A stretch of DNA of 64,000 nt. Origin: Desulforhabdus amnigena. Its GTDB lineage: Bacteria > Desulfobacterota > Syntrophobacteria > Syntrophobacterales > Syntrophobacteraceae. The DNA is taken from positions 585,001 to 649,000 of the forward strand of contig NZ_BSDR01000001.1 in the NCBI RefSeq assembly GCF_027925305.1. The letters run 5' to 3'. The position numbers and the translations under genes were made by a program. The notes beneath the pieces were generated by a model. It was not told the origin of the DNA, searched no databases, and saw only the letters and a program-made list of their open reading frames with translations. Shown here piece by piece: positions 47,522 through 51,203 of this stretch; position 1 is the first letter of the stretch; every line of letters begins with the position of its first letter.

Positions 47522-47844
47522 TTGGAACTCTCGGTGTTTGTGGTCTGGTAAATAAAAAAGAGTCTGTCTCTTTTTAGAGAGGATAACATGCCTCAGAGGA
47601 GGTGCAGTCGTGACCGGATTGCGCTACGCAGGCATAAAAGCCCTGGAAATTCCATCAGGCATCCGGTCTGACCACGCTTTTCATGGGGTCCGCCCAAGGG
47701 GCATCTATGGCTTAGAACCTATCCGGAGACCCCCGTGTGGACTTTGCGACACCCCTGTTGGTCCCCCTTTGAGGAGGGAATTGAAGGGGGAGCCGCTCTG
47801 CCGAGGCAGGTTTTCGGATAGGCTCTTAATCGAGATAGTACCTT
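47522..47844. other. Intergenic region with the 112-bp element
   Basis: 323 bases between the M48 gene start and the 132-residue protein stop, both on the minus strand. It holds an AT-hairpin (AAAAAGAGTCTGTCTCTTTTT near 47568) that could end the sia transcript, an unassigned GC-rich stretch, and the 112-bp element at 47714-47826. Confidence 0.55.
47714..47826. mobile_element. 112-bp MITE-like element with terminal inverted repeats, copy 1
   Basis: AGAACCTATCCGGAGAC at one end and GTTTTCGGATAGGCTCT at the other form imperfect terminal inverted repeats. Between them, GTGGACTTTGCGACACCCCT and CCGAGGCAGG are shared with the copy at 61309 almost base for base. No open frame codes a transposase; non-autonomous movement is inferred. 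Confidence 0.7.
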
Positions 47845-48243
47845 CTATTGGTCAGGCTCAACATCCTTCAAAAATTCACCGTATTTCTTTTTCATGCATT
47901 CGGGACAGATGCCATGGCTGAACGCAAGATCAATATGCTGGGCAAAGTAGGATTCGATCTGTTGCCAATAGTTGTTATCGGTACGGATCTTTTTGCAGAA
48001 AATGCAGATTGGCAAGATGACTTCCTTGAGCTGATTCAATTGCATGAGAGTTGACTTTAAGTCATGGGTCACCTCCTGCAATTGGATTTGATACTTGTCG
48101 CTGATCGCGATAACCTTGTTGAATTTATGGAGGAGCTTCTCATATTCATCGAGCAGAATTTTATACTCGTTGTAAATGGGAGATGAGCTTCCTGAATGCA
48201 GCGATAGACATTTCTCCGCCCTCTGGACAATCCTGTCTTCCAT
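47845..48243 (-). CDS. Small protein with helical N-terminus and Cys-rich tail (sia operon)
   Basis: 132 residues, ATG at 48243 after AAAGGTGAAA. A long helical region (about 25-75) may form a coiled coil. The C-terminal part, LPICIFCKKIRTDNNYWQQI and HGICPECMKKKYGEF (about 77-122), has two CxxC pairs and a Cys/His pattern. The same tail is found at the end of many sensory and response regulator proteins of sulfate reducers, so it may be a zinc-bound partner module. It follows siaC by 36 bases, the place where siaD lies in Pseudomonas. Confidence 0.8.
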   Translation of the reverse strand: MEDRIVQRAEKCLSLHSGSSSPIYNEYKILLDEYEKLLHKFNKVIAISDKYQIQLQEVTHDLKSTLMQLNQLKEVILPICIFCKKIRTDNNYWQQIESYFAQHIDLAFSHGICPECMKKKYGEFLKDVEPDQ

Positions 48244-48279
48244 TTTCACCTTTCTCAATTCGACCGTAACCTTTGGAAT

Positions 48280-48657
48280 TCAGCCCTCTACGGGAATTAT
48301 ATTGAACGGCAGTTTCACGTCTTCACGAAAGTCCTCCGCCAGGTCCAAAGCGCGAGAATTTTCCCTGTCGTAGTACCAGTTGATGACGATCTCCTTGCCT
48401 CTCGCTGCCGCATTCCCCAGCATGTCCAACATATCCAACATGCACTTAATACTGCTGCTGTTCATATAGATTACCTTAATATCCAACTGAAGAGACTCCG
48501 ACTCCTCGAGATACTCCTGCAACCAGGAGAGTACAGGAGTGTAGAATTCGAAAGAATTCTCCGGGTAGGACTCCCCAGACAATTCGAGAATGCCTGCTGA
48601 TAAATCGGATCGGATAGCCGGCGTTGATGTGGTCGGCTGAACATTCAATACTTCCAT
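48280..48657 (-). CDS. siaC: SiaC-like phosphorylation target (DUF1987)
   Basis: 125 residues. Matches the DUF1987/SiaC family, e.g. FYTPVLSWLQEYLEESESLQ and VIYMNSSSIKCMLDMLDMLG. In Pseudomonas aeruginosa SiaC is phosphorylated on a threonine by SiaB, dephosphorylated by SiaA, and when free activates the diguanylate cyclase SiaD. In the present protein the corresponding loop reads NSSSIK, so a serine would be the acceptor; the exact residue is inferred. GAGGGTTAGAGT precedes the ATG. It is third in siaA-siaB-siaC and starts 10 bases after siaB. Confidence 0.88.
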   Translation of the reverse strand: MEVLNVQPTTSTPAIRSDLSAGILELSGESYPENSFEFYTPVLSWLQEYLEESESLQLDIKVIYMNSSSIKCMLDMLDMLGNAAARGKEIVINWYYDRENSRALDLAEDFREDVKLPFNIIPVEG

Positions 48658-48667
48658 ACTCTAACCC

Positions 48668-49207
48668 TCAAACCTCGGCAGTGAGAACAAAGAAATTGTA
48701 GTTGTCGTTGATCTCGTTTAACAGGTATTTCAGCTTTCTGGAAGATCTTCGTGCGATATCGATCAGGCCAACACCGGCCCCTGTGGCGTTTGGGGGGACT
48801 TCCCTTCGAATCTGTTCCCGGTAAAGTCTCTTCAGTCCATCCTTGTCGAGGGCATTGAGTCGTTCAATTTTTTCAACCAGTTCGGTTGCATCGTATTTTT
48901 TGATTATATTACCGGAGCTTATGGTGTATTTACCATTTTTCTTCGCGATTATTATAGTGGCGATATTGAATTCCTTGGGAGGAAATTGTTTTTTTGTGAG
49001 ATAATTTTTTACATTCTGCGTCAGCTCAATATAAACCGCGAAAACATCCATCATGGCATCTTTTTTAATTTCCTCATTTTCGAGGTGTCTCCGGATCGCA
49101 AGGCCGAGCTCTTCAATGATGCTGTGTAAAAATGGACCATTGAAACAGATCAAAATTCCCTTCTCAGTGAATTGGTTTTTCAGCCTCATCATCTCATGCA
49201 TCACCAT
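48668..49207 (-). CDS. siaB: SiaB-like protein kinase (DUF6272)
   Basis: 179 residues. The HATPase-like fold shows an N-box (FAVYIELTQNVKNYLTK) and a G-box (NATGAGVGLIDIARRS), as in SiaB of Pseudomonas, which phosphorylates SiaC. Start ATG at 49207 is supported by GGAGGAAAAACCA; it overlaps the end of siaA by 14 bases, which shows coupling. The whole N-box and G-box are kept, so kinase activity is likely. Confidence 0.88.
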   Translation of the reverse strand: MVMHEMMRLKNQFTEKGILICFNGPFLHSIIEELGLAIRRHLENEEIKKDAMMDVFAVYIELTQNVKNYLTKKQFPPKEFNIATIIIAKKNGKYTISSGNIIKKYDATELVEKIERLNALDKDGLKRLYREQIRREVPPNATGAGVGLIDIARRSSRKLKYLLNEINDNYNFFVLTAEV

Positions 49208-51203
49208 TGGTTTTTCCTCCAGTCATCATACTAAAACCCAGGAAAAGGATATCATCGCGCTGCGGAGCTCCTCCGCGATATTCGGCCAGTTCACGTCTGT
49301 ACATCTCTTCCTGTTGCTTCATCGGCAGGAAAGCGAAGGATTGGATCATTTCCATGAAACGCCCCCTTCCCATACTGAATCCCTTTGCGCCTCCGGCCTG
49401 ATCCAGGATGCCGTCGGTGGTGAGATAAAGTTGCGTGCCCTTTCTTACATTGAGTTCGTGGTTCGTATAGGAAAATTCCTCAGCTAAGGTTTTATAGCCG
49501 ATGCGCTTCCTGTCCCCCTTGATTTCTGAGACCCTGTTTCCGTCGAAATGATAGAGAGAGATGCCTGCACCTGCAAAAACAATCTTAGCTTCTTCCGGGA
49601 TGCAAAGACACAACCCGATGTCAAGACCTTTATCGATGAGAAGGTCCGAAGTGTCATGGTACAGGGTATTCCTGATGAGGTGGTTGAGTTCACCGAGGTT
49701 TCGAGCTGGGTCTTCCACGCAAACGGCATCCGGGATGTGATTGAGCAGGGCATTTACTGTCATGGTTATTAACGCGCCGGGCACTCCATGACCCGTACAG
49801 TCGATCACGGCGATCAGGAAACGCTCCCCGACCTCCCTGAAGTAGTAAAAATCGCCTCCCACGATATCGCGCGGCATGTAAAGAATGAAATATTCCTCAA
49901 GATATCGATCGAAGAGAGAAGTCCGGGGAAGTATGGACGATTGTATCAGCCTGGCATAATCGATACTGTCCATGATTTGCTTCTGGGCTTCTTGCAGCTT
50001 GTGGTAGGCATTGCTCAACTCCGTCGTTCTCTCCTGAATTTTGTTCTCAAGATTCCGAGTATAATCGAGAACGGTGGCGGTCATCGTATTGAAGGCTACG
50101 GTCAGTTGACCGATTTCATCATTGCGTGCAGCAGGAAGAGAAAAGTCGTATTCCCCTTGCGAGACCCGTCGTGAAGCATCTGTAAGGTTTGAGAGAGGCC
50201 TCAGTACGATTTTGTTCAGCATGGCGGTAACGATCAAGGGCATCAGGAAAAGAGACAGGAGGACTACGGCGATGATTGGCAGGAAATTTGTGATCTTCAG
50301 GATCTGGGATACATCCATCAAGACCACGTTATACCAACCGATTCCTTTCATATAAGTCACAGCTGCAAGATATCGCTTTCCCTCGAGGGTCATCGGAAAG
50401 GTCTCTACTTCTCGCTTTTCCAAGCTCAGATCTTCGATGGCTTGAGTGAGGCGGTCTTTGTCCTCCTGATTGCCCATAAGGCGATATACCATAAGCTTTT
50501 TTTCATCCTCCCACACGGTTGCGTTATGTTTGACGTATTCTCTGTTCGGATGGGCTTGAATGATGCCGGCCCTGTCCACTAATATTGCGGATATCCCTTT
50601 ATCCTTCGACAGGGTGATTTCATTAATGAAATCACTGATATCGATCCCGCTTCCGCTCACACCGATTTTGTAGCCGTTCTCATCCTTCAAAACGGCATTT
50701 ATCCATACTTTGGAGTCATTAATGATCGCATTGTAATCCACGTTCAGGATGAAGGTATCCACTTTCTGCAGAGCATCGAAAAACCATCTGTCTGCCGGCT
50801 TCTTTTCGCTAAGGAGGGTAATATCGACTTTTTGCGCTTTGGTGTCGTACACATAGTATCGTTTCGAATTCCTCACAGCGATGAAATAGCTTTTATCACG
50901 AAAAATGTTTCGATAGCTTTCCAATGCCTCGAAAGCGAGCTTTCGCAGGTTCTCATCTTCCTCGTCCCGGCACCAATCCTTCAGTATCCGGTCGTCAGCC
51001 ATTTTCAGGGCTAACGCCACTTCACGATCGATCACGGAGAGAATCTTGTTTTTTTCCAGCAGGGCGTGTTTTATGGCAAACTTCGTTCCCAAGTCCCTGA
51101 TAATTCTGTCGGTGCCCATGTAAAAGGCAATGAGAGTGAGGGAGCCAATGATCAAGAAGACCAGGCAGGTGATCAGAGTAAATTTGCTCTTGAGAGTCCT
51201 CAT
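49194..51203 (-). CDS. siaA: SiaA-like membrane PP2C-type phosphatase with Cache and HAMP domains
   Basis: 669 residues. An N-terminal span (FTLITCLVFLIIGSLTLIAF), a periplasmic dCache-like sensor (about 30-310), a second span (LPIIAVVLLSLFLMPLIVTA), HAMP (about 335-390), a coiled coil, and a SpoIIE/PP2C phosphatase (about 415-660) with YMPRDIVGGDFYYF, IDCTGHGVPGAL, LTTDGILDQAGG and QRDDILFLGF. All metal aspartates are kept. GAGGGACAACC precedes the ATG. In Pseudomonas SiaA dephosphorylates SiaC; here the signal sensed outside is unknown. First gene of the sia operon. Confidence 0.93.
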   Translation of the reverse strand: MRTLKSKFTLITCLVFLIIGSLTLIAFYMGTDRIIRDLGTKFAIKHALLEKNKILSVIDREVALALKMADDRILKDWCRDEEDENLRKLAFEALESYRNIFRDKSYFIAVRNSKRYYVYDTKAQKVDITLLSEKKPADRWFFDALQKVDTFILNVDYNAIINDSKVWINAVLKDENGYKIGVSGSGIDISDFINEITLSKDKGISAILVDRAGIIQAHPNREYVKHNATVWEDEKKLMVYRLMGNQEDKDRLTQAIEDLSLEKREVETFPMTLEGKRYLAAVTYMKGIGWYNVVLMDVSQILKITNFLPIIAVVLLSLFLMPLIVTAMLNKIVLRPLSNLTDASRRVSQGEYDFSLPAARNDEIGQLTVAFNTMTATVLDYTRNLENKIQERTTELSNAYHKLQEAQKQIMDSIDYARLIQSSILPRTSLFDRYLEEYFILYMPRDIVGGDFYYFREVGERFLIAVIDCTGHGVPGALITMTVNALLNHIPDAVCVEDPARNLGELNHLIRNTLYHDTSDLLIDKGLDIGLCLCIPEEAKIVFAGAGISLYHFDGNRVSEIKGDRKRIGYKTLAEEFSYTNHELNVRKGTQLYLTTDGILDQAGGAKGFSMGRGRFMEMIQSFAFLPMKQQEEMYRRELAEYRGGAPQRDDILFLGFSMMTGGKTNGDA

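Follow-up and report, generated by a model that had tools for sequence, protein, structure and literature searches.

What does a SiaABC partner switch act upon when its cyclase is missing? The question is raised by a locus of Desulforhabdus amnigena (Desulfobacterota), which lies within a 64,000-nucleotide stretch of contig NZ_BSDR01000001.1 (positions 585,001 to 649,000 of the forward strand), hereafter the window. In Pseudomonas aeruginosa SiaABC is known as a control of cyclic di-GMP (c-di-GMP) synthesis (PMC7647112); SiaC activates the diguanylate cyclase SiaD, the SiaC-SiaD-GpCpp complex is available as PDB 7E6G, and DUF1987 proteins have been suggested to modulate their neighbours in general (PMC8457831). 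In the window, the place of siaD is taken by an open reading frame on the minus strand (positions 47845-48243) for a 132-residue protein, here called SP, which joins a stalk of the kind that docks SiaC to a tail with four cysteines (Cys4). We consider it probable that the output of this SiaABC partner switch is SP, a stand-alone stalk-Cys4 protein, without c-di-GMP made in cis. A preliminary description of the locus had proposed SP as a new output partner of SiaC; the sequence gives good support to a role as SiaC partner that does not involve c-di-GMP, but SP would be the docking half of SiaD kept without its cyclase rather than a new partner.

The evidence for docking lies in the stalk of SP (residues 22-75; positions 48019-48180, minus strand), which AlphaFold2 (AF2) predicts as a single long helix, with block means of 90-97 in predicted local distance difference test (pLDDT) scores at residues 31-70. 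Within it, NKVIAISDKYQ aligns with EKVARISDRYQ of SiaD. Judged by the contact list for the SiaC-SiaD interface (PMC8457831), SP retains the SiaD residues K77, V78, I81, S82, D83, Y85 and Q86, replaces R74 and R84 conservatively by Lys and differs at R80, M88 and R90, and on the opposite face SiaC retains Y65, N67, S69, I71, D79, R103, L107 and D114, with the changes M75L and E110D. When SP alone was searched against the PDB with phmmer, the top match was the SiaC-binding stalk of SiaD in the SiaC-SiaD complex (7e6g_A), albeit a weak one (E 0.097). A hidden Markov model of 119 stalk motifs, from which all stand-alone SPs were held out, matches SP at an independent E-value of 2.9e-12; the motif Ser and Asp were part of its seed pattern, and their invariance among the seeds is not independent evidence. 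The match scores 45.9 bits, whereas none of 2000 shuffles exceeds 10 bits and none of 24 other proteins that share the tail, and have a helix before it yet no SiaC motif, exceeds 1.5 bits; a chance coiled coil was rejected on these grounds. Conversely, a stalk profile (A3) built without the Pseudomonas SiaD finds both motifs of 7e6g_A at E 4.6e-20, the next chain scoring 0.004, and the NCBIfam SiaD model matches SP over residues 12-71 (E 1.4e-5). SP probably acts like the front half of SiaD.

The remainder of the switch is encoded immediately upstream of SP, also on the minus strand. The siaA gene (49194-51203) encodes a 669-residue membrane sensor phosphatase with dCache-like, HAMP and SpoIIE/PP2C domains (Pfam SpoIIE 2.3e-17, HAMP 3.9e-12). 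It aligns with the NCBIfam SiaA model (NF038263) over residues 5-659 at 613.9 bits, where the equivalog cut-off is 700, and with the SiaA PP2C domain of PDB 6k4e at E 1.9e-70; alignment to the Pseudomonas crystal chain shows that the PP2C motifs GGDF, VIDCTGHG, TTDG and QRDD, with the catalytic Asp, are retained. The product of siaB (48668-49207; 179 residues), the SiaC kinase, matches PF19788 at E 5.8e-41 and SiaB in PDB 6kko_A at E 3.1e-40, and its catalytic Glu (Glu61 in the membership rule of the family) aligns with that of the Pseudomonas crystal chain. It passes the cut-off of the NCBIfam subfamily NF038262 (SiaB_fam_kinase; 191 bits against 85) and falls below that of the equivalog NF038264 (179 bits against 225). 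The switch phosphoprotein itself, encoded by siaC (48280-48657; 125 residues), matches PF09345 (E 3.6e-42), SiaC in PDB 6kko_C (E 4.3e-34) and, at 157.2 bits, NCBIfam NF038265 above its equivalog cut-off of 150; in the alignment Ser67 occupies the position of the phosphorylated Thr68 of Pseudomonas. By these matches the three products are SiaA-like, SiaB-like and SiaC proper.

The genes are tightly packed: siaB overlaps siaA by 14 bp, 10 bp separate siaB from siaC and 36 bp separate siaC from SP, whose ATG is at 48243 and whose stop codon ends at 47845 (an alternative upstream TTG at 48258 would give 137 residues). The overlapping or closely spaced siaABC order of the preliminary description is thus upheld by coordinates and by the Pfam, NCBIfam and PDB matches. 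Since the genes past SP vary among genomes, we take siaA-siaB-siaC-SP as the unit; scans of the locus for promoters and terminators gave chance-level matches only. Compared with Pseudomonas SiaABCD, phosphatase, kinase and switch protein stand in identical order and are followed by a fourth gene with the SiaC-binding stalk motif and its contact residues, whereas the phospho-site is Ser instead of Thr, and SP carries a single motif where SiaD carries two, lacks a GGDEF domain and has a Cys4 module.

Could the cyclase be encoded elsewhere? The source genome is a single contig of 4.54 Mb, 99.4% complete. No GGDEF domain lies 3' of siaC at the locus, as had been described, and none is found in SP by Pfam; against the NCBIfam SiaD model (NF038266) SP reaches 24.6 bits where 290 are required. 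SP has no GGDEF and is therefore not a SiaD. The whole genome encodes one SiaC, one SiaB-type kinase and five GGDEF proteins, and the SiaC-docking motif and stalk were found in none of these five. A stalk profile run over the genome matches SP alone (E 8.4e-17), the next match being a 14-position piece at 0.95. A SiaD homologue elsewhere in the genome that binds SiaC would have spoken against SP as the output; searches of the genome for GGDEF domains, the motif and the stalk profile found no stalk-GGDEF protein, and this candidate was rejected. A subtler arrangement would be a SiaD split in two, in which SiaC-bound SP joins a resident GGDEF protein in trans through its Cys4 module and still feeds c-di-GMP. 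Such a split could draw on the fused form of SiaD found in other genomes, where the Cys4 module shares one chain with the cyclase, and on the five resident GGDEF proteins, of which one is small (235 residues) and has a short helix (L044). We nevertheless think it unlikely, for none of the five has a second SiaC stalk or is linked to the locus, and SP is again the sole stalk protein in the two other genomes that have the same operon (G009 and G021).

The tail of SP (residues 77-121; positions 47881-48015, minus strand) is the part without a counterpart in the Pseudomonas system. Its two CxxC pairs, C80/C83 and C113/C116, had been noted together with the coiled-coil-like helix, and both features hold. 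The consensus of the tail reads PICxxCKKIRxDxxYWxxxExYxxxHxxxxFSHGICPxC, and the four Cys are invariant in 18 stalk-tail sequences as well as in nine tails of the REC/PAS/GAF/HAMP type. No Pfam family matches the tail above its cut-off, although weak zinc-finger matches lie below it, and together with the Cys spacing these suggest that the module probably binds zinc. A tail profile gave chance-level matches only against PDB sequences, and a Foldseek search of the PDB returned unrelated helices for the full SP model and nothing for the tail model. A literature search on the tail motif found no report, and the module is apparently undescribed.

Within the source genome the tail profile matches SP alone; the sensory proteins on which the tail had been said to occur were found in relatives. 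There it follows REC, PAS/GAF or HAMP-PAS domains or a VUPS membrane-sensor domain, and a single genome (G090) has as many as 14 copies; in 24 proteins retrieved from relatives through a match to the tail, the module lies close to the C-terminal end. No other output domain was found in ten such proteins scanned with Pfam, two of which had no Pfam match at all. Representative proteins with REC, PAS/GAF, HAMP and VUPS domains (L007, L005, L008 and L026) share with SP a coiled coil followed by PICxxCKKIR...YWxxxExY...FSHGICPxC at the C-terminus, but their input is two-component, PAS/GAF or membrane-borne and they have no SiaC stalk motif, and no siaABC genes were seen next to theirs. As the tail ends chains that carry input domains and no other output, an output or interaction role is favoured, though its C-terminal position is not proof. 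The opposite role has been weighed, with Cys4 as a metal or redox sensor and SP as an input or sink that withholds SiaC according to its zinc or redox state. The four invariant Cys would suit a sensor; in the long, fused SiaD the module sits between two SiaC-docking stalks, a position from which it could gate the cyclase, and DgcZ is a known case of a cyclase under zinc control (cited in PMC8457831). These points are outweighed, in our judgement, by the position of the module at the end of chains whose domains otherwise serve input, and these genomes hold no other recognisable SiaC target to be regulated, which makes a sensor or sink improbable. The same tail is common at the C-terminus of REC, PAS/GAF, HAMP and VUPS proteins (L005-L031, L143, L144), and it was observed on three viral contigs as well, the two strong matches being PAS-type tail proteins by eye.

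How did a stalk-Cys4 protein come to stand after siaC? SP corresponds to the N-terminal half, the stalk-Cys4 portion, of the fused long SiaD. In long SiaD proteins (for example L041, L053, L065 and L105) an N-terminal stalk and Cys4 module, about 38-45% identical to SP, likewise follow siaABC directly, but the chain continues to a second stalk and GGDEF, whereas SP ends after Cys4. In the genome G150, for instance, the gene 3' of siaC encodes a 393-residue protein made of stalk, Cys4 tail, linker, second stalk and GGDEF. Full-length SP orthologues stand directly after siaC in G009 (L047, 65% identity) and G021 (L048, 55%). In a tree of SiaA+B+C, in which SP was not used (a SiaB+C tree was also built), the three loci with SP only form one clade (100/100), sister (87/99) to a mostly fused clade of Geobacterales and Desulfovibrionaceae; fused forms also occur on deeper branches. 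The simplest reading, though not proven, is that SP derives from a Geobacter-type long SiaD by losing its stalk2-GGDEF half.

Its equivalence to half of a longer protein would also suit a decaying remnant, leaving a switch with no working output. Decay, however, should not leave SP intact in three genomes, at 55-65% identity and with ends at about the same point, nor the SiaC-contact residues kept, and no GGDEF vestige was detected at the locus. When the window is compared with L047, SP shows a non-synonymous divergence (dN) of 0.227, siaC one of 0.217 and siaB one of 0.220 (synonymous divergence, dS, is saturated); by these similar values SP is as constrained as its neighbours. A pseudogene was accordingly rejected on dN and orthologues, and we regard a remnant as very improbable indeed. 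An element that resembles a miniature inverted-repeat transposable element (MITE; about 113 bp, window positions 47714-47826) lies 18 bp past the SP stop codon; it has 18-nucleotide terminal inverted repeats, 83% complementary, and some 40 or more copies in the genome at 82-88% identity (40 candidates scored). Truncation of SP by this repeat was rejected, as the orthologues terminate at about the same point.

The preferred reading, SP as the output of the SiaABC switch, can be put into steps. By homology, SiaC would be dephosphorylated at Ser67 by the membrane sensor SiaA and phosphorylated there by SiaB. The conserved contacts suggest that unphosphorylated SiaC docks on the single stalk motif of SP (residues 37-57, core ISDKYQ at 47-52), most likely with two SiaC bound to a parallel dimer of SP, the arrangement that each motif of the Pseudomonas SiaD shows. 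Docking may then fix or order the stalk coiled coil of the SP dimer and thereby switch the C-terminal Cys4 module, which would in turn act on some partner; with the GGDEF half missing from SP, no c-di-GMP would be produced in cis. SiaC-SP binding and a c-di-GMP-independent output are what we infer here. Several points weigh against this reading: SP offers a single SiaC motif where SiaD offers two; stand-alone SP occurs in just three genomes, and in one of them the contig (L048) ends a few hundred bases past the gene; the AF2 confidence of the tail is moderate (block means about 50-77), with no fold match; and zinc is itself an inference. A small stalk-Cys4 protein of 132 residues is a natural minimal case in which a SiaC switch without a cyclase could be tested directly.

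Does the stalk travel with SiaC beyond this locus? A stalk protein adjoins siaC in all 80 SiaC loci sampled by SiaC similarity. When these loci are classed by regular expressions, with Pfam run on examples rather than on every protein, 45 carry a plain stalk-GGDEF protein (SiaD), 16 the fused stalk-Cys4-stalk-GGDEF form (two of them also with a stalk-histidine kinase), 12 a stalk-histidine kinase together with a stalk-GGDEF protein (11 from Azospirillum, one from Geobacter), five a histidine kinase only and two a stand-alone SP. Most carriers of the fused form belong to Geobacterales and Desulfuromonadales; others are records named Fundidesulfovibrio, Holophagaceae, Opitutia and Chromatiaceae. 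Among 395 genomes of the phylum, seven have a canonical SiaC and two more a divergent match near the cut-off. The stalk occurs at E<1e-4 in six genomes, all among those seven; most of the six supplied rows to the profile, one of them altered in its first few residues, and this sensitivity is to that extent trained. No stalk reaches E<1e-4 in the 388 genomes without canonical SiaC, the two best standing at about 0.005, and this absence is a fair test. A lack of co-occurrence of siaABC and SP in other genomes would have spoken against SP as the output; in a survey of 97 relatives, full-length SP is present in three genomes, in all of which its gene is the next one after siaC, and no genome has it without SiaC. 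Elsewhere among these relatives SiaC is confined to G095, where stalk-HD proteins stand beside it as different stalk outputs, and to a divergent form in G090; G001, the second genome from this genus, lacks both SP and SiaC.

The outputs themselves differ. Stalk-histidine kinases of Azospirillum, Thermotogaceae and Methanospirillum and the stalk-HD proteins of G095 resemble SP in having an N-terminal docking stalk, a non-cyclase output and a place by siaC, although that output is a kinase or HD domain and not Cys4; a further variant, stalk-histidine kinase-REC, is found in G154. We would give roughly even chances to a broader reading, in which the stalk serves as a transferable plug, coupling one Ser/Thr phospho-switch to a cyclase, HD domain, histidine kinase or Cys4 module, with the SP clade purely Cys4 and c-di-GMP-independent. 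The HsbA-HsbD and BgrV-BgrR systems (PMC8457831) are comparable in that a STAS-like protein controlled by kinase and phosphatase binds and modulates an effector, but there the outputs are cyclases and the switches classic STAS proteins instead of DUF1987. A literature search for SiaC outputs other than a cyclase found no report in the library used. The SP locus thus suggests that SiaABC, known for c-di-GMP control in Pseudomonas, may be a general plug-in control for varied outputs, and the stalk provides a sequence signature for the target of SiaC; this signature tracks SiaC across phyla and is found on four or more kinds of output. The Cys4 module of SP also ends many response-regulator and PAS proteins.

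Several individual loci were observed alongside. In Azospirillum, siaABC is followed by a stalk-histidine kinase and a stalk-GGDEF protein at L057, L060, L061, L064, L067, L068, L074, L076, L078, L079 and L109; a single SiaC may control kinase and cyclase together in these bacteria. In G150, which encodes two SiaC proteins, a stalk-histidine kinase (L142:1390-2406) adjoins no siaC and is a possible SiaC target. Two loci in records named Methanospirillum hungatei / Methanomicrobiales (L103, L126) combine siaABC with a stalk-PAS-histidine kinase in metagenome-assembled genomes that bear the label of methanogenic archaea. Finally, G090 and G428 (L039, L038) encode a divergent SiaC-like protein with a small HATPase-like neighbour, beside a gene that by eye resembles a GAF-adenylate/guanylate cyclase, an arrangement that is possibly a further switch of the SiaC kind.

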